Shown: piece by piece, positions 10,349 to 53,590 of the stretch
Position numbering within the stretch: position 1 is the first letter of the stretch
How the letters are laid out: each line of letters begins with the position of its first letter
Source: Apostichopus japonicus
Lineage: Eukaryota; Echinodermata; Holothuroidea; Aspidochirotida; Stichopodidae
Assembly (NCBI RefSeq): GCF_037975245.1
Contig: NC_092579.1
Span: 19,366,678 to 19,430,677 of the forward strand
DNA: 64,000 nt
Direction: 5' to 3'
Translations under genes and position numbers: made by a program
Notes under the pieces: generated by a model
The model's database searches: none
What the model saw: only the letters and a program-made list of their open reading frames with translations
Told to the model about the DNA's origin: nothing

Positions 10349-13300
10349 TGCAGTAGCTTGCCCGAATCTTTTTCACATTTTTGCCCGACAATTCCATGAT
10401 TTTCTTTATTTAGCATCATGATGCCCGAATATTTCCGTGTAACACCACCGTAAGCGCAGTTCATCTGGGCTACCACGCTTTTGCACGATCAATTTTTTCT
10501 TCTTTTAACTAGTCAATTGTATACCTGGACCAAGGGCGGCGGAACCGGGGGGGGGCACAGGGGGAACGTGCCCCCCCCCCACTTTACCTCAGGTTAAAAA
10601 TATGCCTTTTCACATACAAATTGAGGTGCCTCAAGTTAGCAAGAGGCCAGGGAACCAGAATGAACACTCGGGAAGGGCCGTTTCCGGCCATCTGAGGGGT
10701 TTGTAAAACCAAAAATTTTCTAGTACGCTCCGCGCCAACCGATGGTGGCGCTCCGCTCAGATAGTCGTGCATACAACTTTGCAAATCCTGACTAAGCCCG
10801 TGACTTTTAATGAATTTCTGTGGGTCAAACTCAAAGCTATTTCAAATGGAAAAAAATTGTTAAGATTTCACCTCATTTTGTCTCAAAAGAAAACGTGTTC
10901 ATTGTTTCCCAATTTGCGCATTGGATATTGCAGTGCTAGTATGCATATTTTCCGTTAGGGGGGGGGGGGGGGGGGCGTTGATGGAGTGATGTGTATACAC
11001 AAATAAGATAATACAATAAAAGTTATAAAGGGTACTAAATATAAGGCATGCATTAGTCCAATCGAATTTCTGCAAAGTGCCCTTTGATGTCGGTGCCCCC
11101 CCCCCCCCCCCAGATTAAAAGTGCTTCCGCCGCCCTTGACCTGGACATCCCCAACATGAGTGTATATAAGAAACATTTTCTTTTTCATGGATGGTGGGGG
11201 GGGGGGGGAGTGCCTACAAGCGTAAAAGTACAGGTTTATCATATCTTTTGTTATATTTTATACTTTTTTGTGAGACAAATTGCAGTCTCACCCGACACAG
11301 CGACATTATCCCGCCTGTATGTTTTTCTGGAGGTAGCTGAGTACCGGTACTGTGTTAAAATAATAAATAAGGTAACTAAATAGGAGCTTAAAAAATATAC
11401 TGTCCCATTTTCCCCCTTCAAAGTGATGTTACCATTTTTTCTTCTTCTAATTTACCAAATTTTTGGGGAAGTGTAAATTTGTAAAACGTGAGATTATAAA
11501 ATAAAGAATGTTTAGATGCAACTTGCAAGGCTTCAGAAGTGCCGTTTCCGGCAATCTGAGAGGCACTGTTTGCCAAAAATTTTCTTGTATACGCTACGCG
11601 CCAACCGATGGTGGCGCTCCGCTTAGATAGTGTCACGGGAACTTTCGGGCACAAAAAGTTCTGCCCCCCCAAACTGAAATGGTCCCGTACGCCTATAGCA
11701 CTGCGCCATACTGGAATTAATCAGGTATAGAAGTGGATATGCACTCATCTATGTAAATTTACTTTGTAAAATTTAAAACAGCAAAGATACTTACTAACAT
11801 GTGTAGGCCCACAAGTGTACAGTTTGAGTTAAAACACGAAACGGCAATCTTCGACTTATGTGACTGGTAATGCATGTGAATCGACAAGAGCCCCCCCCCC
11901 CCCAAAAAAAAAAAAAAAAAAAAACATACAAGGCGAAAGGACCAGCAATATGCCATTTGTTAAACCCAAACTCTGTTTGTGTATGGGATTACATCCAAGC
12001 ACATTCAACACAAACTTTATCACTTATACAGACCATAAACCTTCAAATCAAAATCTACTTTCATTGGAACTATATTAAAATTACTTATCTTCAGTGCGTA
12101 TGTATGTGACGTTATCTTGCAAATAATACCGTTAATTACCAAGCTTCTCTGTGAAGTTATACCGCAACTCATGATTACAAAATTAAGAAATACAAACTTA
12201 CGGGATTCTCTATGCGAAAGTCCGGTCTTTTCCGTCACGATTGCATAATTCCAAAAGCTAACTTTGATAACGATAACTTGTCTGTGTATGTCTCCACGGG
12301 AAAATAACAAATAAAGAGAATACTTACTTCACTGATGGGTAGGCTATGCTGATCCAAGACAATATAGCCAAATAAAAATAAAGAAATTACTACCAAATCG
12401 CTGTAAAATAAACATATCTGTAGCCTAATACATAAAATAATAATATAATAAACCTTAGGCATGATGACGATTACTACATATATACTAAATGAATGATACC
12501 GGACACACATTCCTTAGGGTACCTACCGTTGCTTTTATACGGGATAATACGGCGTTCCATATTAGCTATAAGCAACATTACAAACATTCAAATTTCCACT
12601 GACCAACCTATACTGTGAAATAGACTTCGTGCAACTGTTGTGTATCCTATTATAGGATACACAGCAATTGCACGAAGTCTATTTCATATTTTTATGATGA
12701 ACGTACTATTTCATCTATTATCGGCACCACACCCTACTTTTTTTTCAAATCCTTGATCCTTCCCTGAATAAGTTGACATTCTTTGATGGTTAACAGTCGT
12801 TTTGTGTTTCTGTTATAAAACGATTACATGTCCTGATTAGGCCCACTTACAACTTTTACATAAAACGATTGCCTGGCAGATTGGAAACGATAAGAATATC
12901 CTGGTCATTTTATTTCAATAGATTGTTACGAATTTGAAGGCCGCTGTTTACGAAATGCCGATGTAACGGTCTCGCAGCAAGAAGGGCTCGCTCTTTGTGC
13001 TGATTCAGGTGGACACCTCCTCCAGGTACTAGGTAACGGAATGTTCCATAAACCTAGGACAACATTGCTAAGTACCTCAGGCGTCATTTTCCCCCAATGG
13101 ATCGATGCATTTTATGACGTCACCGGATGGCGTAGTGGTAACTACGCGTTCTACGGGGATGGACATCCTGGTAATACTGGAGTCTGGCGTAAGTAGCATG
13201 ACGTCACGGATGATTGTATATCAGCCGATGTCAGTAACCATTGACAACGTTTAACTTACGCCAGCAGTGGCGCGCGCAGAAGGGGACACGTGGGTAGGAG

Positions 13301-28662: not shown

Positions 28663-31600
28663 TCAGAAGTTCTGTAGTGTTGATCTTAGTTGAGCTATAT
28701 CTTGAAGTCCTGTCTGTATCTGTGCAAGTTTACCAGCGATGCCGTTTAAACTTTCCTCCTGTAGAGTAATAATAATACCAAAGAATTGTTGTTTGGCGTC
28801 TACAATCACTTGTAAAATTAAATTTGTGATGTATTTTACTTCTGATGTGAAGTGTGCAAACATGAAAGAAAAGACAAGCTAAGTACAAAATGCATGAGAT
28901 GTTCACAAATGATGGAAATCTTCTACAATATCCTGAACACCTTTGTGGTTACTTTTGCTGACAATTCTCTTAGTCAGGCAACATAAAAAGAGGCCATTGG
29001 ATAAAAATAAGGTATGTGCAACACTTTGTGTGTGTAACACGTCAAGGAAACTAAGTAGTATAAATTACAAAATTGTGATGTGTGAAAGAGATTGTCCAGA
29101 CTCGACCGAAATAGCCGGGTGGCATAACTGGATATTCTTGTGAATGTTGCATGTTTGGTGCAATCGTACAAATTACTTATTTAGTATACTGCTTGGTCTG
29201 CACATCATAAATTAGCAGAAAACAAAACTCAGTAACTTAAATTGAAAATGAAATATTTAATTTCATAAAAGCCAAGGTTGCATTTGGTCCAAACATCTGC
29301 ATTATATTTAAAGTCAAATTATCGAAAGGGTCAAGATTGACAAAATGCTAACAACCAGCTAACATGCGGTGTACGATTTCAAACACAGATTATCCAAAGA
29401 TGCAATCCCATCAATAGATTCTACAGAAAATTGACTCAACTGTTCCCGCACTAGTTATACACTGATATATATATATATAGTATGAGTGATGTAATAGTCC
29501 CACACTGAGTAGAACTGTATCAACTTTAGTCAGCAACTAGGCATGTCTTATAGTAGGCTTCCTTACTACTGTGCATACAAGACAGTTATAATCCACTGTA
29601 TAATCCCTCAGTATCTTTGTTTAAACACTGTCTGCATCAATGACAGATTGGACTGATGTATTCTTATTTGTTAAATTTCCAACTCATCCAAATCTCTCAG
29701 ACACTGCCAGTTTTTGACCCTGCTAAATGCTTTATGTTGCGACCAGGGTCACAACAGACAAGATGGTACAGTACAGTAATTATAAGGAAAAACAAATGGG
29801 GAAATAAGGGACTATTGTCTTACTCACCAACTGGTCATCTGTTTGTTTGAAATCATGTGACCATTGGATAGTTTCTAGATTTTGATTGAGTCGTGCTAGA
29901 TGAACTGTTATCATAGGGAAAAGTTCTCTGACGTGGTCGTGGTAGGCCGCCTCCACTCTGAGATTATCACCGATCACTGGTTGCTGCAACCTCGTGGTCA
30001 ATTCTTGCTTCTTTTCCAAGATGGTTTGAAGATGACCGTTGAGAGAACTGATGGTGGAGATCTTGGACTCTGAAATAGAAAGAGATGCGCACATCGATGA
30101 AATCTTGAAGATAAATATGTGTAAAATGGTTTTAAAAATGGACTAAAACATACAGAAATTCAATCTGCTGGTCCAATTCTCCTGACATGGGCTTTACCAT
30201 ATATATGGTTGAGTACATCTGGCAAATGACAGGTGCTTGCTTGGTGAAATCTTTTATGGCTATTTGTATTTATCAAATACCCTAAGTTGGGTTTCATGGA
30301 ATGATAGATATAACTAAGTGTGTTGTGGATGTCCCAATTGATAATATGGCTATATAACTGTAGTGAAGGCCACCCCTCATGCTGTCTGAATAGACTTAAA
30401 TTATTAACTCGTAGACCAGGGCAAATTTTTAATGGTGGTCACCAAATATCTGCTCGGACAACAGAAATCAGTTTCGAAGGTTGCTCGGCAGCTGATTAGT
30501 TGTTGACATCAAATTCAGATGGCATTGCACTAAAGGGGAGTCTCAGAGGCCCCCAGCTATTGTTCTATTCACCTTCACATTCCTTCCTACAGTGAACACA
30601 TTGGTCATCCTTTGCTATTTCGTTCCTTATTTTTGAACAACCAACTTTGCTGTTTGGACAACCGACAGGTAAGACCTGGTCGCCCCAGAGAGTATCAGAC
30701 AATAATCTTTAACCACGTAGACACATTGTTTCATTCAAATTTTAATGCAATCTTAAATTCTAAACCATCAATATAAGCAACAGCTGCTCACGTACCATAC
30801 AGTCGTACAGTAATAACGCACTAACCTAGAATGTCCAGGTGAGTTATATCTCTAGTTTCTTTGTCCATGAGTCGTTTCTGAATGGAGGACGATATCTGCA
30901 ATGGAACGATTAACATGTTAAATGTTGATGTCGTTTGTTTTTAAAAGCTGAAAGAATTCTGCTGTATATAAACATTGGCATGGGAATATTTTTTTCTGGT
31001 ATCGCATCTCAAAAAACTATCGACTGTAAAATGCAATATTTGGACACAGTATAACTACATTAACTTTTGTGAGACAAAAGTTTAGCGCCTTCATAAAGTT
31101 TTAACAATTCATTATTCCCTGATTGGGATACTCACTGAGAAAAAACTTTTTAACTACAGAGAAGCATTTTTAAATGTTTATTTTAGAATGGCACAGTCTA
31201 GGAATAACATATAGTGAAATGCTATACAAAATAGTAAAAAAAAGGTAAATAAACAGAATAATTTTTGTATGTAAACTAAAGAAAACTACTTTCATCATTT
31301 TTAAAAAAAATTTACTTCATTAACCCCGGAAAAAATTTCATTTTGAGATATCTCCTGTTCTCTCATGGCGATTCTCACACACAATTATAGATGTTTCAAA
31401 GAGGAATGACTCTGCAACTTCCCCCACCCCTCCACCACAAGTTTCTTGTTGGACAACCAACTTGAACACTGTAGTTTTTATACTCAAACAGAGGCATACT
31501 TACTGAATTAATTTCTTTCATTTGATCTGTTTTCTGCCTCAATCTGTCAATCATCTGCAGGGATGCTGCCTGTGAACCCAGCTGCTGCTGCTGTAAACCC

Positions 31601-32917: not shown

Positions 32918-35900
32918 TTTGACTAAATATGCATAAGAATATATTGTGATCATCAAAGACAGTCGCTGAGGTACTACAGGATGTCTATGTGAAGAACAAG
33001 ATAGTGAAATTTGTAAACAGCGCCTGAATTATTGAATTGAAGTTAGCAGATTAACATATCTTCATCACAGGAATCTGCAATTCAGCATGCAGGGTTCATA
33101 CCTAAGGCATAATGCTAGCGATCTTAACCAAGATTCAAATTCTAGTATCCAATTAAGTTTCGTAATTAAAAGTAGTGATGACATAGTCGTTAATCAATGT
33201 TGCCAACCTGAATGCATAGGCGAGTATCCCAGTATTTTATAACGAATGGGCTGTGCCCCTGGGATTGTTGAAGCCGACTCCCAGGTACGGTGATTCTCCC
33301 CAAGAGAAAAGAAAGAAATAAAACTTTAGACTTGAAATGGTGCATTCATTCTGAGGCATAATTAGGCTATTAATTCGGTCTACCCGTAAGTAAATGTTAA
33401 TAAATACCTTACTTAATATTTTCTTTTAGGAGGGGGGGGGGGGGTAACAGCCGCCTCCAGGCCTAGATAGCCCTGGAATCCGCGCCTGGAACACATGTTA
33501 CCAAGTTCGTGTTTCATCACGTACTGAATGTGCAACGTTCATTAGATCGAAAACGTAAGCCCTTTGACAATAATAAAAGAATGTTTGGTAAATATCTCCT
33601 ACATACCGGTAACTGCTAAGGCAGACATTCAAAATTAGTTGGATTCCATGTTTATGCTCACAATGTGACTATTAAGGTTTAATAAAAATCCTATATGATG
33701 AAAGATACGTTACTTATAATTCAATTGTATTTTCCATATCCTACAAGTACTTCACGGTGTTCACCTGTATACCTATCACCACACTACATTCGATTATGAT
33801 TTTGATATGCCGGTATCATTGGTAACTTTCTGTAAATTTGATGATTAAAGTATGCTAGCTCTCCACCTTACAAACTATCAACAGCTATAGCACAGTCCAA
33901 TAATAGGAGTATCCAACGGATCTGTTCTGGCGATCACGTTTCACTTTATATCGTTCCATATCACAAATTAAATCTCCCTTAGACACCCTCCCCCCCCCAA
34001 CCGTCCGACACCGTGACCCACACACATTTGGTACCTCGCCCCCCCCCCCCCGCCCCTCCCCGAAGAAAAGGACCAGCTAGATGATCTTGAAGAGGCTAGG
34101 AGTCGTATTTTTACCGAATAAGTTCTCCGATGTTAAAAATAATTGACTCTCGAACTATTTAGGGACGTCACAATTTCATGCCCCTTATAAGCAGAAAGCA
34201 GGTCAAATTAATTTGAATGAACCATTTCGGATTCATGTATCAACAAAACTATAAAAAAGCACCAACTATGTATCTAAAGGTATGCTATTTTGGCCTCAAA
34301 TATGCTAGATATTCAAATATGGTCACCTTTGGTCAAAATTCTTAAACTGTTTTTATTACAACCTTCGAGGAAATTTTCCTCACTAGGACATGCAGTCATC
34401 TCGTGTTCCTTAAAAATGTCTGAGAACAATTTGGAGAGTAAAGACCTCCAGGAAAGTACTTTATGAAAACTTCTAGCAATTATAGCGTGCTATAATTTGG
34501 GGCTTATAGTAATCGACTACCTTTAAAGTTAGATAGTTATCACTGGCCTTTAGACATTTCAATGCACCTTTAAGACTTTTAAGTATATTCTTCTCGCTTT
34601 CTTTTCCATTTGAGTGGTTGGGGTGGGAGGGGGGGGGGGGCTTCTCTCTGGTAAAATTAATTTCCTTGTTGGTTATGGGCAAAACAAGGCTAGTATGATA
34701 ACATGTTTTTAAAAACAAATCAGATATTCTAGGAATGCCGGATGTATAAAATAGGCAGGCTACAAGAGATTATATTCGCGCCAACCATAACAATACGTCC
34801 GCACACTAGTCTTTATTAAATGGCCTTCGAGATTGGCATAGCCTTTACCACAAACAGATCGTTTTAACTAGCACAACCTTGCGCCGTTTAGACCTAATTA
34901 TAGACATGATTCATTGTCTAAATGTGCCAGAGAAAATACACGATTGGATTGCTAAGCTTTGAATTTTTGTGTGGGATCAGCAACAGGCACAGGCTACCAT
35001 GGTAGTATAGCACTCTACAACCCCGCCCCACACTCCTCCTTCGCAACTTATCTGATCAGCCCGAAATTTTCATGCTCCTAACTATATTTAGAAATTCCCC
35101 TCCGGGCATACCGCCGCCCCTCCCCTCCCCTCCCCTCCCCCAACATTTAAAATCCTATGAACTTCACTGTTTTAGAATGAGAATCAGTCTTGTAACATGA
35201 ATATATCGCCTTTACACTTAGCAGTTTAGGCCTATTCATGATCGTGCAACATTTTGAACGTCATAGTGTACATGTACTCAACATAATCGAAGTAAAATTA
35301 TCAAAGATATTGTTCTAACATGGTGATGATGTACTGGTGAAATCTCATTCGTATCCCATACATTTATTATTTCTCACGTGTTTATACAATCATATCTGAA
35401 GTCATGGCCGCTAACTTCCACTCAAAATGTACTTTCAATAAATGGTTATTTCATCCTCAAAGTACATCCCGAATTGCTCACCTAGGTTACCAATGTCATC
35501 AATTGTTTTATTATGTTTGTGTTACATTATTCCTATATTTATTTTGTTTGTCTGTTCTTTGTATGACGTTACCGTCGTCAGCTAGACCAGCCTTCAGACA
35601 AGTGAAGAAGTTATCGGGTACACAAATCCTTTAATCCTATTAAGGATATTACTATACCAAATATCATGAAGGCAAACTGTATCGAAGGCGGATGCGCGTC
35701 TGGGAAATGAATCTCTAATAACACCGTGTGAAAACCTTTATTCAACAATTACACAAAGTGGTTTTACCTCCAGCCTATAGTCCAAACACTCGGCCTGTGA
35801 AGGCGAGGGGAGGGGTGGGGAGAGGTGTTTACTCCACACTGTCACACCGGAAGTGTGATGGCTGTTAAAAGTACGTCGGGGATTACTTTCCCAGTCAGTG

Positions 35901-35990: not shown

Positions 35991-37035
35991 CCGGCAGCCC
36001 AGTGCACTTTGATCAAACGAACGAGGTACCAATATCTGAGTATTGGAACATTTGTGGAAAAATCCAGTATATCCAAAAGTGGATGTCTGCCGTGGTCGCT
36101 CTGCTGCATGTGGCCCCTGGGGCCGGTTAAAGGGGCCCCTAAAAAAATGCATCTGATCAAACGAACGAGGTACCACTTGAAACCAATGTCAACGTAATGC
36201 ATGAATGCCACATAGTACTGAATGGCCCATGCCAGACAAATTTTCTGCTGCAAAGGGCCCGCCAGACGCCCAAGAAGGGCCCCTAAAAAAATGCATCTGA
36301 TCAAACGAACGAGGTACCACTTGAAACCAATGTCAACTTAATGCATGAATGCCACAAAGTACAGACAAATTTTCTGCTGCTGAGGGCCCGCCAGACGCCC
36401 CCAAATATGGCCCAAATGCCCATTAGCGTAGCATTGACCCAGATTAAATATGCAAGGTACCACTCAAAACCGGTTTGGAATGTTCGGGTTGATCTTACAG
36501 ACTATGGAAATCATCATGCCAGACAAATTTTCTGCTACAAAGGGCCCGCCAGACGCCCCAAAAGGGCCCATAAAAATGCATTTGATCAAACGAACGAGGT
36601 ACCACTTGAAACCAATGTCAACTTAATGCATGAATGCCACAAAGTACTGAATGGCCCATGCCAGACAAATTTTCTGCTGCTGAGGGCCCGCCAGACGCCC
36701 CCAAATATGGCCCAAATGCCCGTTAGCGTAGCATTGACCCAGATTAAATATGCAAGGTACCACTCAAAATCGGTTTGGAATGTTCGGGTTGATCTTACAG
36801 ACTATGGAAATCATCATGCCAGACAAATTTTCTGCTACAAACAGGCTAACAGACACACTAAAAAGGGCCCCCAAATGGGCCATGATCAATCATAGTTGGT
36901 ACCACACAAAACCAATATTAAATGCAAAGGTACTTTCCACAGAGTAAAGAACTGCCAATGCAAGACAAATTTTCTTCTGCATAGGTCCCACCAGATAGAA
37001 AGTATAGGTGGCCCAATGCGGCCCTATATGGGCCT
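35991..37035 (+). repeat. Left inverted arm of foldback element
   Basis: Contains two tandem units of about 285 bp (GATCAAACGAACGAGGTACC at about 36299 and 36584) plus partial units. Long open frames here are translated repeat and recur in the opposite arm. Confidence 0.88.
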
Positions 37036-38819: not shown

Positions 38820-40045
38820 TTTAGACCCATATATAGGGCCACATTGGGCCACCTATTCTTTCTATCTGGTGGGACCTATGCAGAAGAAAATTTGTCTTGC
38901 ATTGGCAGTTCTTTACTCTGTGGAAAGTACCTTTGCATTTAATATTGTTTTTGTGTGGTTCCAAACCGGTTTTGAGTGGTACCTTGCATATTTAACCTGG
39001 GTCAATGCTACGATAATGGGCATTTTGGGCCATATTTGGGGGCGTCTGGCGGGCCCTTAGCAGTAGAAAATTTGTCTGGCATAAGCCATTCAGTACTTTG
39101 TGGCATTCATGCATTAAGTTGACATTGGTTTCAAATGGTACCTCGATCGTTTGATCAAATGCATTTTTATGGGCCCTTTTGGGGCGTCTGGCGGGCCCTT
39201 TGTAGCAGAAAATTTGTCTGGCATGATGATTTCCATAGTCTGTAAGATCAACCCGAGCATTCCAAACCGGTTTTGAGTGGTACCTTGCATATTTAATCTG
39301 GGTCAATGCTACGCTAATGGGCATTTGGGCCATATTTGGGGGCGTCTGGCGGGCCCTTAGCAGCAGAAAATTTGTCTGGCATGGGCCATTCAGTACTTTG
39401 TGGCATTCATGCATTAAGTTGACATTGGTTTCAAGTGGTACCTCGTTCGTTTGATCAAATGAATTTTATGGGCCCTTTTGGGGCGTCTGGCGGGCCCTTT
39501 GTAGCAGAAAATTTGTCTGGCATGATGATTTCCATAGTCTGTAAGATCAACCCGAACATTCCAAACCGGTTTTGAGTGGTACCTTGCATATTTAATCTGG
39601 GTCAATGCTACGCTAATGGGCATTTGGGCCATATTTGGGGGCGTCTGGCGGGCCCTCAGCAGCAGAAAATTTGTCTGTACTTTGTGGCATTCATGCATTA
39701 AGTTGACATTGGTTTCAAGTGGTACCTCGTTCGTTTGATCAGATGCATTTTTTTAGGGGCCCTTCTTGGGCGTCTGGCGGGCCCTTTGCAGCAGAAAATT
39801 TGTCTGGCATGGGCCATTCAGTACTATGTGGCATTCATGCATTAAGTTGACATTGGTTTCAAGTGGTACCTCGTTCGTTTGATCAGATGCATTTTTGGGC
39901 CCCCTTTAACCGGCCCCAGGGGCCACATGCAGCAGAGCGACCACGGCAGACATCCACTTTTGGATATACTGGGTTTTTCCACAAATGTTCCAATACTCAG
40001 ATATTGGTACCTCGTTCGTTTGATCAAAGTGCACTGGGCTGCCGG
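38820..40045 (-). repeat. Right inverted arm of foldback element
   Basis: Reverse complement of the left arm with an extra partial unit. GGTACCTCGTTCGTTTGATC-type boxes start near 39137, 39437, 39721 and 39865, with a further one near 40005. Confidence 0.88.
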
Positions 40046-41539
40046 GCTATATGACGACCCAAGGGTATAACGTTTGCATTCTACGCGTTTTCTATCGGAC
40101 TGAATTTTTTGAGGAAGAAAAACTGGCCACATTGTAACAATTTCAAAGCTGTCATATTTTGTTTGAAGCACTATTATAGGAATAGTAATACTTTTTAAGA
40201 AAAGTCACCCAGGAAAGAACATGGGCACGAAAACCAAACAACCGAACGACTGATCCGCTCTCAACCCCAGTCCCCTTGCATCGAGACTGTGACTGTGTGA
40301 TCATTATTAGGAATAGTAATCAATAGCAAGTATACTTACCAGGCCACTGACCCACGATCTATAGAAAACATTGTTTTAATGTAGCCTATAGGATTGGTCG
40401 CCTCACATTCAAGACGAGCAAAAATCTTACCACAAGAGAGGTACATGGCATAAACAGATGCGCGGGTTTCCGATGATTATGCCATGCACAGATCTGTTTC
40501 CAGAAGCATTTATTTCTTGCAGACGTCGATAAATAAAGTACCGTTGTTCAAACTGTCTGTTAAACATTGTTGTTCATTGCTGAGTCCGTGTAGACCCTTG
40601 AGGAGGCAATAACCGGTCATACAGTATCTCTAAATGACGGGATGGTAACTCCTACCCCCCCCCCACCCACCTTCCCTAACTGTAAAGTTGTAGCCTATAC
40701 ATATATCCTGCCATGTGAATACAGTAAACAATGTACACGAAGACTTCTCCACTAGAACTCGCGGTAAAGCAACTATACGGATGTATGGTACACGACGGAT
40801 AACGCCCCTTCCCCGACCCCTCCCTCTTCACTCTTTAATAACCGGTCTTATCGCTTTTAGAAAGGGGATCTTTAAATTCTGCTTCATGTATCATATAAGC
40901 AACCTGATTTTCAATGCTGGATTAATATTGAAAACATTTCATTTGACGGATCCCGTTGACCACGAAAAGTGAAAAGACATCCGAAATCTCGATGTTTAGA
41001 ATATATATATATATATTCCCTCCGTTTACAGACTGGCTCATATTTAAAAGCCAGTCGGTTTATTCATCTTCGTTATTTTGACCTCGTCTTTACTTCCTGT
41101 TTACCTACAGGATTCCTGCATTTGCACTTTTTCAATTTCGTAGCACTGTGGTAGAACCTGAACAAGCAAAGTTATTTACTAACGTTAGTCAATTAGTTGG
41201 TTTACTTATGCATCATTTCTGGAGACCGCAAACTACAGGTTATGTTTATTTAAAACAAAAGTTGTCAGCTAATCCATATGGAAAAGTTGTGAGAGTGGAA
41301 GGAGAGAGTAATGTTTGTAGCCGGAAGTTCTGTGCAGGCCGCGAAATTATTTTTCCCACTTTGACGCGGCCATATTAGCATAATGGGGGTGGACTATCGG
41401 TCGTTGTTACGGCTTATTGGTCTACGTCACAGACTATGCAGTGATATCTCTCGGGTGTTTGTTTGGGTGCTGAAAGTTCTCAATTAAGTTACATGTCAGG
41501 GATTCTAGTACACGTACCAGTACAATAAATAGTATAGTA
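40046..41539. other. Region between foldback element and CACTA-like transposon
   Basis: No gene supported. It contains a short poly-C tract near 40655 and a promoter-like block at 41319-41436, which is repeated in inverted orientation at 53477-53590. Confidence 0.5.
41319..41436 (+). promoter_or_regulatory. Promoter-like block, left copy of an outer inverted pair
   Basis: Contains an Ets-type CCGGAAGT, GCGAAATTATTTTTCCCACT, GACGCGGCC and a CRE-like ACGTCA. The 33-bp core 41341-41373 matches the reverse complement of 53509-53541 at 31 positions. GGCTTAT...ACGTCACAG is also shared. It lies about 100 bp outside the left terminus of the transposon. Promoter activity is inference from the motifs. 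Confidence 0.5.
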
Positions 41540-41555
41540 CACTGTAAAACCCAAC
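41540..41555 (+). repeat. Left terminal inverted repeat
   Basis: CACTGTAAAACCCAAC, a perfect reverse complement of 52814-52829, preceded by TA. Similarity stops abruptly inside this 16-bp segment. Confidence 0.8.
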
Positions 41556-41628
41556 CGGTAGATGAGCTTTCTGAACAAGGGTAATGACAGTCAGGATGAC
41601 TCAATAATGTTAAAATAAGCGTTACAAC

Positions 41629-41772
41629 ATGGTTTACGTAAGTTTTATGCGGAAACGTAGATCAACGTATGAAGATATCGTTGTTTCAACTTGCCATGGT
41701 CGAGTATCAAGACATTTCTACATGAAAACGACTGGAAAGAGAAGACTATGCGTATTTGCAACAGAATTAACG
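41629..41772 (+). CDS. Possible leader exon of the PB1-domain gene
   Basis: Open from ATG for exactly 48 codons (MVYVSFMRKRRSTYED...) and ends at a consensus donor ACG|GTAAGT in phase 0. The acceptor before the PB1 reading frame (catag|GATTGC at 45565) is also phase 0. Joining them would keep one frame through seven extra codons into the PB1 ATG. The leader is basic and unrecognised. It sits just inside the left terminus of the transposon. Confidence 0.35.
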
Positions 41773-42569
41773 GTAAGTGATCGCTCGCGCGCGTATATGA
41801 AGAGTAAGTAGATAACATACGTCAGGGGCCAGCTTTTTCGAAGTCTTGGAGGATTTACGGTTCGTATTTAGACTTATTAATGCTCAATACAGTAATGATA
41901 TTCGCAGAGATTCGAATGAACCTGAAATATGTTGTTAAAATTAGCCCAAGTCAAAGTTTAAAACTTGCAGCATGAAATTATCCGCGTGATTGAATTGGAT
42001 TAGAAAAGTTACTATTTCAACAGCCTAGCGGACAAACTTGATAAGCTCCATTTCACGTTGAAAGTAGGCTGTGCATTAGGGTAGGCTATAGAGCTTTACA
42101 GCTAGGCCTAACCATTAACAGTTGCGCAGTGTAAGACAGGTTCGGTTCATCAGCATGAGCTCAGGTGGTTAATACTGTATACTGATTAGCAAATTTAAAT
42201 GAGTTATATTTAGCCTGCCTTTTTCACAGAATTGTTGCGGTGAGCTATCAACTACTGTAAGTTTAACTAGCTGAAAGTTAGGGCATCACAGTTGAATTTC
42301 ATTAGTTGGCCAAGTCCTCATTATTTGCAACTGTCGGTAAAAATAACAACAACGTGTGGTTGTTTCTACTTGAAATCTGATCTTCGTCGCGCGCTAGCTC
42401 AGTACACTGTGTATTCGCCAAACATTCCACAGATGGTACGGTATGTACGTATTACCAACTTACCGACCGGTACGTTGTCATACTGTAAAGTTAAGGATAA
42501 ACAAACATCAACACAATGAATTTAGTCATAGCTTGACGCATACAAGAGTCAAGAGCTCAAGACACAAAA

Positions 42570-45254
42570 ATGGAATGGAAGTGTAAAATTTGTAATTTCT
42601 CTTGTGACAGGCGAGTTCGCTTATTAAGACATTACAGATTTAGCCATCCTCATCAGGGAAGGCACCTTTCATTTCCATGCCTTTACAAGGATTGCCTTGT
42701 CATGTCAAAAAGTCTTGGTGGGTTAAAAGCTCACATGACAAAGAATCATAAGACTGTCACACTCACAGCTTCCCATAAGACTAGTGAAATAACGTATAAG
42801 TGCAGTGTCTGCCATCACAGAGTTGAAAATTTATTTAGTCACCTAAACAGACATCTGAAAGTGTTTGAAAAAATCCAGTGTCCATTTAAAGAGTGTTTCT
42901 TCGAAACTAATGTGCCTACATCATATTCTTCACATAAGAGCCGATTACATAGAAATGACTCAACTAATCAGCTGAAGGATGAATGTTTATTCAGAGACGA
43001 CACTTTAAGTATTGTTGGGAGTGATACGTTTAGCTCAGATCAAATAATAGAAGATACTGAAGACTTGAATGAGGATATGATAGTTGATCATGACTCTGAC
43101 ACAGATGAGGTATTCACAAAAAGAATTGCCTTGTTCATGTTAAAGCTGGAATCAGTTTTTCATGTACCAGTTTCCACTATTCAGCAGATAGTAGATGAAC
43201 TTGTTGAAATGCATTTCTTGTCAAGACCTATCATTCAGTCCCAGTTGAGTAAAGTTTTTATGCAGCAACAGAACATAATGCAAGATATTATGCAGGCAGT
43301 AACAGATGTTGTAATGACAGAAGCTCCCATGATTGCACGTCTTCAACGTGGAAACAAATATGGTGTTCTGTCTACTCATAAACTGAGAAGGAAATTTTTT
43401 CAGTTAAATTTCCCAGTTGTGAATGCCAAAGAGTTTATTTTAGGGAAAGTAAATGGCAAAACATGTACTATGGTTTATATTTCTGTGCCTACAATGATTC
43501 AGAAGCTTTTGCAGAGAACAGATGTGATGGATAAGGTTTTATTAAATGAAGAAACTTCACAAAAGTATTGCTCTTTTAAAGATGGCAGCGTTTATAAAAC
43601 TAATCCTTTCTTTGAAAATGGGGATTTCAGACTTGCTATTGGCCTGTATATGGATGAATTTGAGGTTTGTAACCCATTGGGTACGTCAAAAAAGAAACAC
43701 AAAATTTTGGCTGTCTACTGGGTGTTAGCCGATATACCAGCTAAGTTCCGGTCACAGCTTCATGTCATTCAACTAGCAGCATTAGTAAAGTCTATTCATG
43801 TAAAAGAATTTGGATTTGAAAAGTCTCTTCTACAGCTTTGGCAAGACTTATCATTTATTGAAAATGAAGGTGTGTTTATTGAGTCTTTAGGAGAGAATCT
43901 CAAAGGAACTGTGGTATATGTTTCTTCTGACAACCTTGGTGCTCATCAGTTTGGTGGGTTCATGGAAAGTTTTGGACCTAATGTTTTGAGGCCATGCAGA
44001 GCCTGTATGGCTACCAATTCAGATATCCAGGATGTACATTTTCAGTTGGATAAGTGTGTTAAGCGTAACAAGGAGAACTTCAGTTATCATATTCAGCAGG
44101 TTGAAGATGACGCATCAGTTTCTAAGGTTTATGGTGTAAAACGTGATTGTGTTCTTCATAAGTACTTGCAGGGTTTCCATGCCACCAACGGTCTTCCGTT
44201 TGATGTATCTCATGACTGCCTGGAGGGCATTGTACCATATGAAATGGCTCTGTGTCTTGCTTACTTCATAGGAAGAAAATACTTTACCTTAGATTGTCTG
44301 AATGCCAGGATCAGACATTTTCAGTACAAATTTACTGACAAGGTCAATCAACCTCAAATTATTGGTACAAACTTTAGGTCAAAAAATACTATTGGTGGAA
44401 ATCAGAGTGAAAATTGGACACTGATACGCCTGCTTCCATTGTTGGTAGGAGAACATGTACCACAGAATGATATGGTTTGGGATGTATTACTTTCTCTGAA
44501 AGATATTGTGGAGTTAGTGCACAGTCCAGTATTTACAGAAGAAATGATCACTAGCTTAGATGCCAAAATTCATGATCACAAACATCAATTCACTAAGGCG
44601 TTTCCAGGTAAAGCTCTAAAACCAAAACATCATTTCATTGAACATTACACGGAAGAAATTAAAATGTTTGGACCTCTTGTTAAAGTCTCTACAATAAGGT
44701 TTGAGGCTAAGCACAACTTTTTTAAAAGAATTGTTCGCAACGTGAACAACTTCAAAAATATACTTGTATCCCTGTCAACTCGACACCAGTTGATGGCAGC
44801 ATACTATCTGGCATCACCTTATTATTTTGGTCAATCTGTTGTGGTAGAAAACATGACAGGTTTAAATGTGTCACTTCTTTCAGAAAACATTGTCACAGCA
44901 ATACCAAGTGAAATTATGTCTTCATCAACGGTTTCAGTCACAGATACCATCAAGTTTGAGGGAACAGACTATGGTAAAGATATGTTTGTTGTGATTGGCA
45001 GTGATAGTGGTCATTCTGTACTAGCAAATATACAAACTATTATTGTTGATAAAAACAAAGGATGGCTTGTAGTAAAATTGCATAAATCTATTTATCAAAG
45101 CCATATTGGAGCATACAAAGTGACAGAGACTGAAAACTATCAAGTAGTTAGTCCAGGTAATCTTAAAGATTACTACCCTCTAACTTCCTACAGTATCAAA
45201 GAAGCTAAAGTGGTTGTGTTGAAACACTTTGTAGATATACATGAAGAACAATAG
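42570..45254 (+). CDS. C2H2 zinc-finger DDE transposase-like protein
   Basis: Single uninterrupted 894-aa frame, no introns. The N-terminus holds about four C2H2-type fingers: C5/C8/H21/H26 (KCKICNF...HYRFSH), then CLYKDC...HMTKNH, YKCSVCHHRV...HLNRH and CPFKEC...HKSRLH. An acidic linker follows, about residues 135-190. The central and C-terminal part resembles EnSpm-like transposases: SSDNLGAHQFGGF (D454), CRACMA, SHDCLEGIVPYEMALCL (D549, E552), PKHHFIEHY and RFEAKHNFFKR (E712). D454, D549 and E712 are candidate DDE residues of an RNase H-like fold. The fingers probably bind DNA. The start is supported by the first finger beginning at residue 3. It lies inside inverted repeats with the PB1 gene downstream. 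With no frameshift or stop it may be active, recently active, or domesticated. Confidence 0.8.
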   Translation: MEWKCKICNFSCDRRVRLLRHYRFSHPHQGRHLSFPCLYKDCLVMSKSLGGLKAHMTKNHKTVTLTASHKTSEITYKCSVCHHRVENLFSHLNRHLKVFEKIQCPFKECFFETNVPTSYSSHKSRLHRNDSTNQLKDECLFRDDTLSIVGSDTFSSDQIIEDTEDLNEDMIVDHDSDTDEVFTKRIALFMLKLESVFHVPVSTIQQIVDELVEMHFLSRPIIQSQLSKVFMQQQNIMQDIMQAVTDVVMTEAPMIARLQRGNKYGVLSTHKLRRKFFQLNFPVVNAKEFILGKVNGKTCTMVYISVPTMIQKLLQRTDVMDKVLLNEETSQKYCSFKDGSVYKTNPFFENGDFRLAIGLYMDEFEVCNPLGTSKKKHKILAVYWVLADIPAKFRSQLHVIQLAALVKSIHVKEFGFEKSLLQLWQDLSFIENEGVFIESLGENLKGTVVYVSSDNLGAHQFGGFMESFGPNVLRPCRACMATNSDIQDVHFQLDKCVKRNKENFSYHIQQVEDDASVSKVYGVKRDCVLHKYLQGFHATNGLPFDVSHDCLEGIVPYEMALCLAYFIGRKYFTLDCLNARIRHFQYKFTDKVNQPQIIGTNFRSKNTIGGNQSENWTLIRLLPLLVGEHVPQNDMVWDVLLSLKDIVELVHSPVFTEEMITSLDAKIHDHKHQFTKAFPGKALKPKHHFIEHYTEEIKMFGPLVKVSTIRFEAKHNFFKRIVRNVNNFKNILVSLSTRHQLMAAYYLASPYYFGQSVVVENMTGLNVSLLSENIVTAIPSEIMSSSTVSVTDTIKFEGTDYGKDMFVVIGSDSGHSVLANIQTIIVDKNKGWLVVKLHKSIYQSHIGAYKVTETENYQVVSPGNLKDYYPLTSYSIKEAKVVVLKHFVDIHEEQ

Positions 45255-45585
45255 GAGTTACCCTAAGTTGAGTTGTCTGTGATAAAGCATGAGCCTTACT
45301 TAACGTTGAAAGATGCAGTACTTGGATGACATTTACATGCAAAATATCTACCCATGCAAGTAGCCAAGAGTAGATGTACAGTAGATATGCTGCCATACTG
45401 CATATTTATGCAGTGCATTAGGTATACTGCAGCTGAATGGGTTGTTGCACTTACTGCTAAAATATTACTACAGTATTTGGTACAGTACTGTAATTCTAAG
45501 GGGAGTGTACGAAATGATATAGCCAGCCTCTCACTCACTTACATTTTTCTCTTTTCATGCATAGGATTGCTCAGAAATTGATACA

Positions 45586-48500
45586 ATGTACAAATTGAGG
45601 GTAGTTTTGTCACCAAAGGACATACAGAAGGTGTCCCTTGAGCAACGTCCAGATTCTGTTGAAAATCTTATGGAAACTTTGAAAGATAAGTTAAGCCTTG
45701 AAGGCAGTTTCACTTTGCAATATGCTGATCCAGACTTTGGAGGTGAGATGGTGAATCTGACTAATGCAAATGATTTACCAGAGACATGTGCATCTGTCCA
45801 CGTGATATACACTGAAATTGCTGAAGATCAGTGCTATCGGAGTAGTACACCCTCACTGTCATCTGTCGGTTCATTTGGAAGCTCACATGACACTATGAGT
45901 GTTAGTTCAAATGATGACATACAGTCGGTAGAAGCCAAACTGAGACAAGGGTGTTGGCCAGAGGTCTTTCAGGTACCTAAAGTGGGCCCAGAGCTGGAAC
46001 TGGTTTTTGAAGATGGTAATAGAAAGTATCTGTCAGAAGGAAAGAAGCTTGACTTAAGCAAAGATCACAAAAGTCAGTTCCTTGATGCGATTGCTAACCG
46101 CATTTGGGAGTACAAAGCTTATCCAACACACATGGAATACACTGAAGTAGCAAAAGCAATCATGAGGACCTATCCTTGTTTGGCTGAAAAGGGAAGTTCC
46201 TCTGGCTATGATGAAATGCTTAACAGCATCAAATTTAAGATGGGTAATCTTAGAGCAAAAATGAGAAAGTTGGACTGCATTGAACTAAATGTTAACTCAA
46301 GGAAGCGCTCCTACCCTGGAACGTCTTCATCAAAACACAAAAAGCCAAAGAGAGCAGAAATAAATTACTTACCAGACATTCCAATTGGAGAAGATGCAAC
46401 AAGTATGGAGTTTTATCGAGAAAACATTTGTGCAGAAGTTCAAAAGAGAAACAGGGACATGAACAAGATTAAAAATATGATGATGAGGACCTATGCATAC
46501 CGTAGACAGGACCTGGTCTTAAAGGCGCCAGCCGTCAACGAAATGGTAGAAAGATGGCCCGCCTTATTTCTTCCCAGTGAAGTAAGTTGAAAGTTCCTTA
46601 ATTGTTCATTAACTTAGTGAGGGTGCTGTCTCCCTCACTAAAATTGGACATTTCGTTTTGCATTTTTCATGATATAGTAGCTGCAGTGTATTATAATGAG
46701 TAGTAAAAGTAATGACAGTGGGTGATTGGTGTTGGAGATGTTTTATTTCTTATGTATAAAATTTTGTTAAATTACAGAAAAAAGAGAAGCTAAGTATGTG
46801 GTCTAATATGGTGCAACAGGGTGATCTGATCAGCAATTAGCCGGTAGATGTATTTTTTAACCCATGGATGTCAGTCACCATTACTAATTGTTTTTGTTAC
46901 TGATATATGCACTAAATACCTGTAAAATTAGTTTATAACTGTATATTATATGTGGTCTTAACCAGATTTCCAATTGGCAGTTTGACTACTACTGACAAAT
47001 GCATTTACAAGTTGCATTTATACTCTCACCTTGGAAATGGCTTTCTATAATATTGCTCTCTAAAGGGAGCTATCTTCTTTTCATGGGGCAAACTTAATTT
47101 AATATTGTTTTCTGCATTTCTCATTTTATTCTTTCAGTTGAAGGCTGAGTTTTCGAGGTTAAGCAACCTTGCTCTGGAGAGCACTTTCTTTTCTTCACTA
47201 GACCAACACCTTGACAGAATGGTGGAAATATTGTCAACCAGACAAAAGTTTCAGAACTTGTTTCACTTTGAGACAGGGGTAGGCTATATTACATATTTTG
47301 TATGGTATGATCATGTAATGCAAGAGCTCATTTGTCTATATTCTTGTTTTAGCAATCATTAAAATACAGTAAATAAGAGTACATACTTTTTATTAGAAAT
47401 TACCTTGTGACAGTTTAACAGGTACATTTTGCATTGTGTATACAATATGACATGCAAAACTAGCATAAAGGTATGCTGTATGCCAGAAATTCAAATATGG
47501 TTACCTCCAGGAAAGTACTTTTGAAAATTTTTTAGCAATTTATAGCATGCCTATAATTTGGGGCCTTTACATACTACCTTGAATTTTACAGTAACTAAGG
47601 CACTTAGTGCTCACTCAGATCTTTTCACAGAAAACTGGTTACTTATAATGAGTGTTATTTGCACAACTGGATTTACACCGAACTCAGTTTCATAATGTAG
47701 TACGTTTGTATTCCTACTAGAGTTGTGCGTTCGCGCTTAATTCATTAATCGATTAATCGATTTAAGCAAGGAACAATAATCAATTAATCGATTTCACATG
47801 TACCAGTTTCGTGATATCAGGCCATACTGTACCAACACAATGCTGCAAAAGGTGTGGTGCCCATTCCTCTATTTCGGATAATATTACGGATTTATCAGTG
47901 TATTTGCCAGCTATCAATTCCATACTGGTCGGCATTTACGAAGGGCCATGCTATCCGGGGGTAGAGAAAATACAAGGTGCAGGTAATCGACCTTCACCTG
48001 CCCATTTCCCAGGCCTCAGCTTCGTTATAGAGGTTATGCATATGACGTCACTTCATATAAACACTGACAGAAGTCACGATAAATTTTAATAACTCGACTA
48101 GTAGTTGTAAGGACAGATATACAATGAAACAAGACAGACACAGTGTGTGGGCCCAGGATTAATTTTTATCATATCATTCACATGTTGCATGCAGCTCAGA
48201 ACTGCATGTGCATGGCATTGATTTATCGATTCATACCATTCATTTAATATACTGCAGTGCAGAAGCTAAATAGCATCAGTTCAGTGACCTTGGAAATGAT
48301 CTTGTAGTAGTTTAACGTCAAGCGCAATGCATAATGACCAGCTACTGTAAGCTCAGTGAATCTTTTGGCTCGATTCCAAAGTTTTGCGTGCCGCGAAAAG
48401 TTGCACGTGCCAACTGTCAACGCCAGGCCTCCTGTCTCTTATATGAGTGACAGTTGGGGCGTGGCTTAGCTGATGTATCATAACCCTTGAATACTGGCCG

Positions 48501-50512
48501 AGTTGCCTCTGCCTTACTGTTAATTCAATGTGCGGTCTAGACACCTGTTGAAAGAAGTGGGGGCGTGGCCTAGCCGATGTATCACAACCCTTGAATACTG
48601 GCTGAGTTGCCTCTGCCTTACTATTAATTCAATGCACGGTCTAGACACCTGTTGAAAGAATTAAAAATGACGTGCAGATTGTTTATTTATTGCCCTCGAT
48701 TAATCAGAACTTGCTATCGTTAATCGACTGCTCATTGTGTAACGATTAATCGCGCACAGCCCTAATACCTACCTGCCATGTTAAGTAGAAGTTGATGGAA
48801 CCAGCTGTCATTCTACCTGTATACCAGCACTGTAGCTTTATGTGCCATATCACTCTGTTATCGTCACTCATCACATTTCAAATGCTGCATATATTGAATA
48901 TTTGCCTTACTGGTGGCCTCATACTTTTTAATGATAGTCCAGCTTTGTATGACACTGTTAATTTTGGTGAAGATCTTACTGTAGGTCATTTGAGGTTAGC
49001 AGAAACCAACATTTCGAAGGTATCATTCTGAAGAATAAGTGGATTATGCTAATTGGCTCAACAGATTGTTTTACAACTCATCTTCAGTACCTGCTGTAGC
49101 TGCCAAAATGCCTTAGTGCTCTTGTAGCTTGGTAGTTAAAATGCTTTGTCAAGGCATAGGAGTAATTGCTTATAAAAAAGCCTGTGCAATGGGAGTCATC
49201 GAAGCCTACATGCAGTTTGGTGTTCTGGTTTGCTCCTTGCATCATTCAATCAGTCATATTGAGTTTGTTAAATGTCAATTTTTTCCCTTTATTTTCAGGA
49301 TGTCACTGCAAAAAGAACTGCTGTCTTGCGATGCATACCAGACTATTTCACGGAACAACCATACTTCAAGGACTTTGAGGTAAAAATTTGCTTTCCATAT
49401 TCTTATTGCAAGGTTCCACGTAATCATTAGAGGTCATTCATTTGAAAAATCCCCACTATAGCAAGACTGATGTGCACAAGTTACAAGTGCCCATTTGAGC
49501 ACCATTCAAGGTTTTTTGGAATGTTAGCCTGAGCATTAGGTAATTAGTTCACCAAAGCTAAGAAAAGGATAGGAGCATTTAAAATTCACATCACAATCTT
49601 CAAATAGCAATAACTTGGCACAACCACAAGTCTGAATTGCTTCAGACTTGTTTTGGTGATATTGGTAGACCACATATACATGCAGATGTGTGTTGCATTT
49701 GATATCATGCATATTTATGAGGGGCATGGGCTAGCAATTATTTCTCTTGTTACTGTTAGGCTTTTTTGAAAGTTTCCCTGTTAATGGGATCAATGAACAG
49801 CAGCAAGGAACCATGAAATGTTGTCATTCTGGTTTTGGGTTTTGATGATAATCGCAACATTTGTAGTACTACTAGTGTGTGTGTATGTGAGACACCTTTT
49901 TTGTAAACACAATATCTCAAAAAAGGAAGCTTGGACAGATCTCATATTTGGTATGTAGGTGTACTGCATTGAGAACAAGAAGACTATAAGTGTCATGTGT
50001 CAAGTTTGATCATCAGCTGTCATTGTGAATATTGTTTGTTACATCTCAATGCTTTTTGCTGTATTTCTGAGATAAAATATGTTGTTCATTCTGGGTTTAG
50101 CCTACAGTATTTCACATTAATATAAGATCATTCATGTTACAACTACTTAACCACAATGCCGTTTTGCATTCTGGTTTGATATAAGTTTAAGGCAGTCATT
50201 TTCTTTTTCTTGAAGGACACAACTATGGCAGAAGACATCCAAACTGAAGTTACTCATGGCATCGCTGTGCTGGGTGATGTCAAGGACCCCCTGTCAATTT
50301 GCATTGTTGTTGATAACAAAATTGTTATTGATGACATAAAGTATTTTCCTAGTGCTGTTGCACTATTTTTTGCAATTCATTATTGCTTGCATCTTGAATA
50401 TGCAAAGGGACAAGAACGCACTATGGAACTTATTCAAAAAGTTTTCTTTGGTCTGAATGGGAGAAAGTTAACTGCTAAGTTGCAAAGCTTCAAAAACAAA
50501 CTGTTCTCATGA
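45586..50512 (+). CDS. PB1-domain protein, SAMD3-like family, transposon-borne
   Basis: Exons 45586-46581 (possibly from 45565), 47138-47278, 49299-49379 and 50216-50512 (TGA). All are phase 0 with GT/AG sites; 504 aa from the ATG. Residues 1-75 look like a PB1 (ubiquitin-like) protein-interaction domain: YKLRVVLSP...VSLEQRP...LQYADPDFGGEMVNLTN. Next come WPEVFQVPKVGPELELVF (from W124), a conserved YPTHMEYTEVAKAI helix, SGYDEMLNSIKFKMGNL, a basic stretch near KKPKRAEINYLPDIP, VTAKRTAVLRCIPDYF, and VVDNKIVIDDIKYFPSAVAL...FIQKVFFGLNG-type C-terminus. This is the architecture of multi-copy fish and invertebrate proteins often named SAMD3-like, here without the SAM domain. Its partnership with the transposase is inference from co-orientation within shared termini. 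Confidence 0.8.
47466..47612. repeat. Dispersed repeat, copy 2
   Basis: Matches 34276-34550 in order and orientation but lacks about 120 bp internally. It lies in the intron between exons 2 and 3 of the PB1-domain gene, just upstream of a hAT MITE. Confidence 0.8.
47718..48764. mobile_element. hAT-like non-autonomous element (TAGRGYTGTGCG termini)
   Basis: The left end TAGAGTTGTGCG and the complement of the right end TAGGGCTGTGCG match, followed on both sides by ATTAATCG-rich subterminal sequence. It is flanked by 8-bp duplications ATTCCTAC (47710-47717) and ATACCTAC (48765-48772), one mismatch. The TSD length and TGTGCG termini fit hAT. It is 1047 bp without a coding region, inserted in an intron of the PB1-domain gene. 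Confidence 0.82.
48455..48662. repeat. Tandem duplication of about 104 bp inside hAT MITE
   Basis: Two adjacent copies begin GGGGCGTGGCYTAGC and contain ACCCTTGAATACTGGC, GAGTTGCCTCTGCCTTACT and GGTCTAGACACCTGTTGAAA. They differ by scattered C/T changes. Confidence 0.92.
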
Positions 50513-52360
50513 AGATTTCAAGTTATCAGCTGAGTGTTTTCATAGTTACTTACATAAATGGGTTTTAGTCCAAATGTATTTTGGATATGTATATTCTTGT
50601 ATTAAGTTCCTCTTTAACACATACAAGATATTTTAGCTTAGGCCTTCTGTTATAAGAATGAGCGTTGCTTTTTGTGAGGAGTGAAGGTTGTCAGAGTTCT
50701 TCAAATGTTTCCTTTGTTTTAATGGGGAAACTTACCTCAATATATCCTTGAGAGAAAGGCACTTGTTTCGTGAGAAATAGCTTACTGTTCTGTGATGTTT
50801 TGTATTGTTTCATTTTTGCATTCTAATGAATATGTTAACAACACCATCGGTTTATTTGATCCATCGTAATTACAAATTTTGTCCTGGATAAAGATTCAAG
50901 AGAAAGGAATTGCTGAATATTTTTGCTAATGTCAGCTTAAACAATAATATTCTTTAGTTAAAGAAGTTAATATATTGCTGTTTAAGTGTAATTTATCAAC
51001 AAAAAATTAACAATCAGGCTACTTAAATAACCCTCTCAACAATTTGAAAACATGCCTGTGGCATTACATTCCATTATAAACATACATAGTTATCATGCAT
51101 CTGAAGTGTTTAAATAGTTCATGTGGTGTCCAGAGAGATATTGCAAAACTCCATTCGACTGGTAATTATCTGGTTTCTTGGTAAATCTTGAAAATGTGTT
51201 GAAACAAATTGTAATATGGAACAGGATGCCATTGGAAATTGTTTCTCTGCTTTTACATTTCAACTTATGAAGAATTGTTGATTGGGTGAATAGGCACTAA
51301 TAATAATCATAATTATAATCAAAGTGCGAAACAAAGTCAATTTTTATGATATGATGATGTTTTCTTCAGGCAGAGAAATGATCACATAATAGCCCACACC
51401 TCTAGTGAGTTTGAAGGGTCCAAAAGTGTCTGGAAAAAAATCTATCAGGCTTAAACTCTAGTTTTACATTTTCATTTTCATTTTCATTCAGAGCCATTGT
51501 TTGTCAAATAATCACTTTGTACTTGCTTAGTTATAGAGAATTCCTAACAGCTTGCTTGCATCAATGTGATTGGTATCCTAGTATATTAATTAAAAAAAAA
51601 TTGCAAAATGTGTTATCAGAGAAATTTGAAACTACAAGCATGTTCATCCTAAACATAGCCCAGTGAGGGATGTACTATAAAATCATCTACAGGAAGTCAG
51701 TATTAATATTATATATACTGATACAGGACAATGCATCAGATATCTGTGTTGTGATGAAACTATTCAAATCACAGTAGTACAAGTGTTTGAAGGATCCAAA
51801 AAATGGCAAAAGACAGGGATTGACAGTGGAATTCTTTCAAAGTATCTTGTGTTCCAAATGGGTCAAATTGAAGTGCTTTGCTGTAAAGATCTAAACAAAC
51901 ATTTTCCATTAAGACTTTACTTTGCATGCTGGTTTTCATGAGTAAAGACTCTTGTGCTTCCTCTCAGATTCTTAAAAGAGTTTTACAGAGTTGCTTTATC
52001 TTATTGTTAAAATGTAAGTTTTTGTGTACAAAGGACCAAACGGGCTATTTGCTTAACCCTGGCTTGATTTCACATACTCCTTTCTAGAAGGAAAGGTTGT
52101 ATGTGTTTCCCCAAACATATCCTTAGCTTTCATGGGAACTAGTTTTCATGGTAATTTTTAATATAATTTACTATATTAAATGAATCATGGAAATGAATGA
52201 TTGCAGCTGGCATGTACCCATGCTCCATGTTCTTCTGTATCTCTCTATTGATACATTTTGGTGTTGTTTCCACCGATAAAATTAGTATTAGGCACTTTTT
52301 ATGCGTTTTATTATTTCGTTGTTAAAGTACATTGTTACTGGCTTCAGAGGTTGAACTTGA

Positions 52361-52366
52361 AATAAA
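52361..52366 (+). terminator. Possible polyadenylation signal AATAAA
   Basis: AATAAA lies about 1.85 kb downstream of the PB1-domain stop and 460 bp inside the right terminus of the transposon. It is plausible as the shared transcript end, but AT-rich context lowers specificity. Confidence 0.35.
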
Positions 52367-52434
52367 GTTGTGTTAACTTAGAAATACATAGTTTTCTTTA
52401 CTAAAATTGTCTGTTGTCATAACTCAATTATATT

Positions 52435-52789
52435 GAGGTAACCCGCTGCCTAGAATATGCCAAGTAGTGTCAACTTAAATATTCAAAGTTAACTCTGGAG
52501 ATAATTGAAAGTGGGAAAAACTTGAATTGGTCTTGTCAGTTTAAAGAGGAAAGGCTATGCTGTATCAGCTCTGAAGTTTTAGTTACCATAACTTGCCCAG
52601 CTTTTTCTCAAAAAAAGATGAAATTTAAATTTGTTGGACTTTGCTGATATCTGTTGCCACAACTGATGAACATAAAGTGTAACAAAGTAAAACCAGTGAG
52701 TTGGTTGTAACCACTACTGTCAAGTCTTACTTATGGAGTGTCTGGGTTAGTAGAGTGAACTTAAAAAAGTTAAGGCAGCGGGTTACCTC
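52435..52789. repeat. Subterminal 17-bp inverted repeat
   Basis: GAGGTAACCCGCTGCCT at 52435-52451 is the exact reverse complement of AGGCAGCGGGTTACCTC at 52773-52789. It sits near the right terminus only; no copy was seen near the left terminus. Confidence 0.85.
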
Positions 52790-52813
52790 GACTTTTTCAA
52801 GTTGTCCTGACAT

Positions 52814-52829
52814 GTTGGGTTTTACAGTG
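52814..52829 (-). repeat. Right terminal inverted repeat
   Basis: GTTGGGTTTTACAGTG, a perfect complement of 41540-41555, followed by TA (52830-52831). Confidence 0.8.
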
Positions 52830-52864
52830 TACAGAGGGACATTGCTATTTAGTCATAGTTATAG

Positions 52865-53476: not shown

Positions 53477-53590
53477 GGCCTGTGACGTATTTCATAAGCC
53501 ACGCCCATGTGGCCGCGTCGAAGTGGGAAAAATAATTTCGCGTGCAGGCCTGACATCTCCGTTGTGGCTCGAATATATATTTCACAGTTC
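53477..53590 (-). promoter_or_regulatory. Promoter-like block, right copy of outer inverted pair
   Basis: Reverse-complement relative of 41319-41436. It contains TGTGACGT, GGCCGCGTCGAAGTGGGAAA, AATAATTTCGCG and, after a short insertion, TTCCGG. A donor-like CGGTAAGTATATG follows about 85 bp downstream on the + strand. Confidence 0.45.

Follow-up and report, generated by a model that had tools for sequence, protein, structure and literature searches.

A 64,000-nucleotide stretch of the Apostichopus japonicus genome (contig NC_092579.1, positions 19,366,678 to 19,430,677 of the forward strand; hereafter the 64-kb window) contains a putative DNA transposon at positions 41540-52829. The element is 11,290 bp long, has its genes on the plus strand, and is enclosed by inverted repeats with a TA dinucleotide outside both. 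We judge that it is a cut-and-paste DNA transposon of animal CACTA/EnSpm-like type that duplicates a 2-bp TA. Two genes lie between its ends: open reading frame 1 (ORF1), which would encode a DDE transposase, and gene 2, which would encode an accessory subunit with a PB1-like domain. The interpretation of 41540-52829 as one copy of such a transposon, belonging to the CMCT clade and carrying these two components, is given a probability of roughly 0.72.

The left terminal inverted repeat, CACTGTAAAACCCAAC, occupies 41540-41555 on the plus strand, and its inverted counterpart occupies 52814-52829 on the minus strand. The two are identical at 16/16 positions and start with CACTG, as the initial annotation had described. 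That annotation also placed a TA on both outer sides, and these are found at 41538-41539 and 52830-52831 as the presumed left and right copies of a 2-bp target-site duplication (TSD). The outer bases GTA..TAC formally lengthen the perfect terminal inverted repeat to 19 bp. The 18-bp end TACACTGTAAAACCCAAC has two matches in the window at ≤3 mismatches, both exact, where 0.18 are expected, and two matches arose in 1/100 shuffles. The case for the termini is made by CAC..GTG ends, TA flanks and enclosed genes occurring together, not by repeat length alone. Among the matches listed, other inverted repeats in the window, of different origin, include pairs of 17 bp (52435-52451/52773-52789), 22 bp (41340-41361/53521-53542) and 90 bp (36913-37002/38858-38947, perfect). 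The exact 16-bp end also occurs in six viral contigs, with a single match in each and no pairs; these matches are assumed, without a control, to be due to chance.

ORF1 is an uninterrupted, intronless frame of 894 amino acids (42570-45254, plus strand), in agreement with the initial annotation. The longest stop-free run in this region is 905 codons, compared to a maximum of 171 among 100 Markov sequences. The presumed catalytic residues are D362 (YMDEFEVCNPLG, codon 43653-43655), D454 (SSDNLGAH, codon 43929-43931) and E712 (RFEAKH, codon 44703-44705), all on the plus strand. Between D454 and E712 are C476/C479 (CRAC) and H688/H692 (HFIEH). The window that describes this layout was defined after the protein had been seen and is satisfied by 4/2000 shuffles of the ORF1 protein; D352 and H687 also satisfy it. 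Toward the N-terminus, C2H2-like spacings occur at amino acids 5-26, 37-60 and 104-127, listed without a control. ORF1 is presumed, from its residues, to be a DDE transposase of the CMCT/RAG1-type layout. A sequence search of the PDB with the transposase returned zinc-finger matches only (best E=0.021). A search of NCBIfam returned no match.

The layout and the ends fit the CACTA/EnSpm-Mirage-Chapaev-Transib (CMCT) group. In the available portion of PMC12730594, the hallmarks of the CMCT clade are C(2)C and H(3-4)H motifs between the second D and the E, mostly CA..TG ends, and a TSD of 2-5 bp. ORF1 has the DDE triad with C476xxC479 and H688xxxH692 between D454 and E712, and the element has CAC..GTG termini with the presumed TA duplication on both sides. 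RAG1/Transib has D, D, CxxC, H..H and E in this order too, a likeness confined to layout, with no match obtained at the level of sequence or fold; the RAG1 residues are D600, D708, C727, C730, H937, H942 and E962 (PMC4914335, in part). The last H and the E are 20 residues apart in both proteins (H942/E962 in RAG1). Two other intervals are similar, at 258 residues in ORF1 versus 254 in RAG1 for the second D to the E and 22 versus 19 for the second D to CxxC; the first-to-second D interval differs, at 92 versus 108 (PMC4914335).

Several known groups share parts of this anatomy. In ESTA, EnSpm and Plavaka of fungi, the second D and the E are likewise separated by a stretch with C(2)C and H(3-4)H, and ESTA has TA TSDs; this comparison is one of descriptions, not of protein sequences (PMC12730594, in part). 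Some fungal CMCT families carry an extra gene, a TET/JBP dioxygenase, whereas the extra gene in this animal host is PB1-like (PMC12730594). ENS1_Cis of Ciona savignyi and the CMC-NA miniature inverted-repeat transposable elements (MITEs) have CAC..GTG ends and a 2-bp TSD, as here, but the available part of their description mentions no PB1-bearing second gene, and they too were compared by description, not sequence (PMC6004678). SmTRC1 and the TRC elements are animal CACTA relatives with 2-bp direct repeats, present in 7/14 SmTRC1 copies, and a CXXC motif (PMC1636069, in part). The available text on Spongebob also gives 2-bp repeats (PMC4298943). TRC ends begin with CCC, in contrast to CAC here, and TRC has Transposase_21 with motif I as D-G..W-P, while the corresponding LAIGLYMDE of ORF1 has, by eye, neither DG nor WP and has no Pfam match (PMC1636069). 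EnSpm elements have been described in zebrafish and Hydra, and these reports, in the parts available, have no bearing on a second gene (PMC3485254, PMC12220107, PMC9341512). The classification as CACTA/EnSpm-like made in the initial annotation is supported by the CAC..GTG ends, the D/D/C(2)C/H(3)H/E layout, and the 2-bp TA flank as in animal CACTA relatives.

Plant CACTA/EnSpm elements have a 3-bp TSD. The element described here does not fit the plant type, as its outer triplets GTA/TAC share only TA, its ends read CACTG (plant CACTA ends are given in the available part of PMC1636069), and ORF1 has no Transposase_21 match at E≤1. Nor does the element fit the TRC definition, given its CAC ends. 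Maize En/Spm encodes two proteins per element and has subterminal repeats and CACT ends, as here; unlike here, its ends are CACTA and its TSD is 3 bp. Maize TnpA is not known to have a PB1 domain.

Gene 2 shares the strand of ORF1, starts 331 bp past the stop of that frame, lies with it between the element ends, and covers 4.9 of the 7.6 kb remaining to the right end. Its first exon (45565-46581, ATG at 45586) is preceded by a pyrimidine-rich 3' splice site with AG at 45563-45564, and encodes the PB1-like domain at amino acids 1-78. This exon is followed by a second (47138-47278, with the weak donor GGG/GTAGGC), a third (49299-49379) and a fourth that includes the stop (50216-50512), all on the plus strand. 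Joining 45586-46581 to the latter three gives a stop-free reading of 504 amino acids. The introns are 556, 2020 and 836 bp long, and 3/3 have GT..AG borders. The initial annotation had reported a spliced PB1 frame; the four-exon frame on the same strand stands, while the PB1 match remains below the cut-off. With amino acids 1-78 alone, the Pfam PB1 model (PF00564) gave E=3e-4 and 21.1 bits against a curated cut-off of 23.6. PB1 was not matched in Pfam with the 334-aa and 504-aa gene 2 queries, and the full 504-aa query matched no Pfam family.

A single-sequence structure model of the first 83 amino acids of gene 2 has a mean pLDDT of 77.7 and a beta-grasp arrangement. A fold search with this model returned 1337 structural matches, two of them at E≤0.001. 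The best 50 of the 1337 (E up to 5.5e-3) include the PB1 domains of p40phox/p67phox, PKC iota/Par6 and NBR1. The modelled N-terminus is thus well supported as a beta-grasp domain. Its more specific designation as PB1 would depend mainly on the Pfam match; a PDB sequence search with the PB1 stretch gave two matches at E=1.8, neither of which was PB1. According to one review, PB1 is usually unassociated with transposable elements, and plant MUGB genes probably gained it through transduplication (PMC8616336). The PB1-like second gene is the element's unusual trait. A limited search of the open-licence PMC literature, without Repbase, found no description of a PB1 gene within a CACTA element among the papers listed. 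A PB1 accessory protein as the second subunit of a CACTA element is possibly new.

Viral and prokaryotic contig collections, which are little informative on animal relatives, were also searched with the transposase and with gene 2 exon 1. Pattern matches numbered 0, 7, 1 and 27 stretches, none of which was confirmed.

Intron 2 of gene 2 contains a nested hAT-like insertion of 1,047 bp (47718-48764), which the initial annotation did not mention. Its ends, TAGAGTTGTGCG and TAGGGCTGTGCG, are alike at 10/12 positions, and it is flanked by an imperfect 8-bp pair, ATTCCTAC and ATACCTAC (7/8). The insertion contains a 104-bp tandem duplication (92%). The hAT label is taken from the type of ends and flanks, which we presume to be those of hAT elements. 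The initial annotation called the transposon apparently intact, which holds for both ends and both coding frames but not for intron 2. The insertion indicates that the element has been resident long enough to be struck, and both frames are still open.

A number of results weigh against the transposon interpretation or parts of it. Exact 16-bp inverted repeats spaced within 20 kb are not in themselves unusual, as at least one occurred in 9/30 Markov-simulated windows, and a TA on the second side, given a TA on the first, has a chance of about 1 in 16. The similarity of the two ends stops at 16 bp; further inward the score is 23, below the shuffle median of 25. The 64-kb window has no second match to the ends or genes of the element. 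For ORF1, Transposase_21 (PF02992) had no Pfam match at E≤1, DUF4218 (PF13960) matched amino acids 652-730 of the catalytic part at E=0.032, below the cut-off, and the Pfam zinc-finger models reached at best E=7.2e-4, all below their cut-offs. DUF4218 is a domain of plant CACTA transposases. The single-sequence structure model of the 894-aa protein has a mean pLDDT of 31 and is too poor for a fold search. A figure legend in the available part of PMC12730594 has three conserved H, while two are assigned in ORF1. For gene 2, the junctions were chosen by eye and the donors are middling; 0/3 donors reach 8/9 consensus letters, and the third acceptor, with GAAG at its end, falls outside the set of strong acceptors. 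FERM and ubiquitin-like folds rank alongside PB1 among the best 50 of the 1337 fold matches. The argument for a shared unit is weakened as well, since controls placed both the poly(A) and the splice signals at background level.

These controls concern the possible transcript signals. An untranslated leader exon may be weakly proposed at 41540-41772 (plus strand) with the donor ACG/GTAAGT. This donor is unremarkable, as 23 of such quality occur on the plus strand of the window; the leader is 1 kb. A good acceptor is present at 45565, directly before gene 2. An AATAAA at 52361-52366 (plus strand) is a possible poly(A) signal that is not above background; ATTAAA occurs at 51589 and 52175, and AATAAA/ATTAAA hexamers are also found inside gene 2 exon 1 (46359, 46468) and its introns (47358, 48660). 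The 331-bp gap between the genes contains neither hexamer, which means little because the 110 hexamers per 64 kb predict about 0.6 and two lie in gene 2 exon 1. Neither a leader common to both genes (donor 41772, acceptor 45565) nor a common poly(A) site was above background, and neither was retained. Maize En/Spm produces one transcript with alternative splicing. One shared, alternatively spliced transcript is only a guess here, since neither the splice nor the poly(A) signals exceed background.

The initial annotation inferred a single autonomous transposition unit. It is likely that both genes travel together, and the anatomy fits such a unit, with the genes on the same strand, 331 bp apart and within the ends. 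An alternative that we regard as unlikely is that the transposon is real and that this copy contains gene 2 as a host or captured gene that does not regularly belong to the mobile unit. The three introns of gene 2, beside an ORF1 that needs none, would agree with such an origin, as would the usual absence of PB1 from transposable elements and its probable transduplication in plants. Against it are the strand in common with ORF1, the short distance from its stop, the share of the right part that gene 2 fills, and a frame that is open across four exons.

Two further explanations are each considered highly improbable. The right repeat could belong to a separate short non-autonomous element (~52390-52829), in which case the 11.3-kb unit would not be bounded there. 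The last ~400 bp do have a palindromic, MITE-like look, lent by the subterminal repeat GAGGTAACCCGCTGCCT, whose inner copy (52435-52451, plus strand) and inverted outer copy (52773-52789, minus strand) form a 17-bp perfect inverted repeat. At ≤5 mismatches, GAGGTAACCCGCTGCCT has one further match within the element, at 48794, and none at the left end; this restriction to the right end is another point against the transposon interpretation. A hidden second terminus at the right end was not supported. With the 17-bp motif set aside, the inner copy resembles the terminus no more than chance would give, as 37% of 5000 random 40-bp stretches of the element score as high; an inner terminal repeat was thus not found. 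Moreover, the right end matches the left end at 16/16 with TA outside. The other explanation, of about the same small weight, is a domesticated host gene pair of transposon origin that is no longer mobile. Both frames being open despite the hAT-like insertion, and the lack of a second copy in the window, would be in keeping with domestication, but a domesticated pair would be expected to lose its perfect terminal repeats and TA flanks.

If the element is a two-gene CACTA/EnSpm-like transposon, the C2H2-like fingers at the front of ORF1 may bind the element ends. A RAG1/CMC-type catalytic part, presumably with an RNase H fold and a zinc-binding insertion (CxxC..HxxxH), would then cut at CAC..GTG, and the transposase would join the element into TA, duplicating the dinucleotide. 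The PB1-like domain of gene 2 would most likely oligomerise the protein or dock it on a partner, and the rest of the protein may bind subterminal DNA or the transposase. This proposed role is that of TnpA beside TnpD in maize En/Spm.

Most work on CACTA transposons concerns plants, and an animal copy that has both ends and is intact in its coding frames would offer a testable element. A PB1 subunit, if confirmed, would suggest a scaffold- or filament-type assembly in transposition by a RAG1-like enzyme, and would caution annotators that PB1 genes of this type may belong to transposons. A broader and more doubtful proposal, which we hold only tentatively, is that an animal EnSpm-like lineage is two-component, with a C2H2-finger DDE transposase and a PB1 accessory protein within the same ends, and that the multi-copy PB1 "host genes" of fish and invertebrates are partly such subunits. 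The latter are presumably the proteins annotated as "SAMD3-like".

Within the window, the element has just one match elsewhere, a 60-bp stretch of intron 2 (47503-47564) that recurs at 34444-34503 (89%) as a dispersed repeat fragment. A 36-bp inverted repeat (94%) lies outside the transposon at 41340-41375 and 53507-53542, ~165 bp before its left end and ~680 bp beyond its right end, and is perhaps composed of pieces of a dispersed repeat.

Elsewhere in the window, Rfam and tRNA scans found nothing. Lectin-like stretches are visible by eye at 2429-2857 and 12894-13193, with no Pfam match at E≤0.01. When ten stretches outside the element were run against Pfam, 1/10 matched, HAUS2 (augmin complex subunit 2) at 29783-30142 on the minus strand (E=1.4e-18), in keeping with an animal genome. 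A tandem array with periods of 63/123/255 bp is located at 4934-5434. Two blocks of 142-300-bp tandem arrays at ~36129-36995 and 38959-39811 are in inverted arrangement and are accompanied by the 90-bp perfect pair given above.

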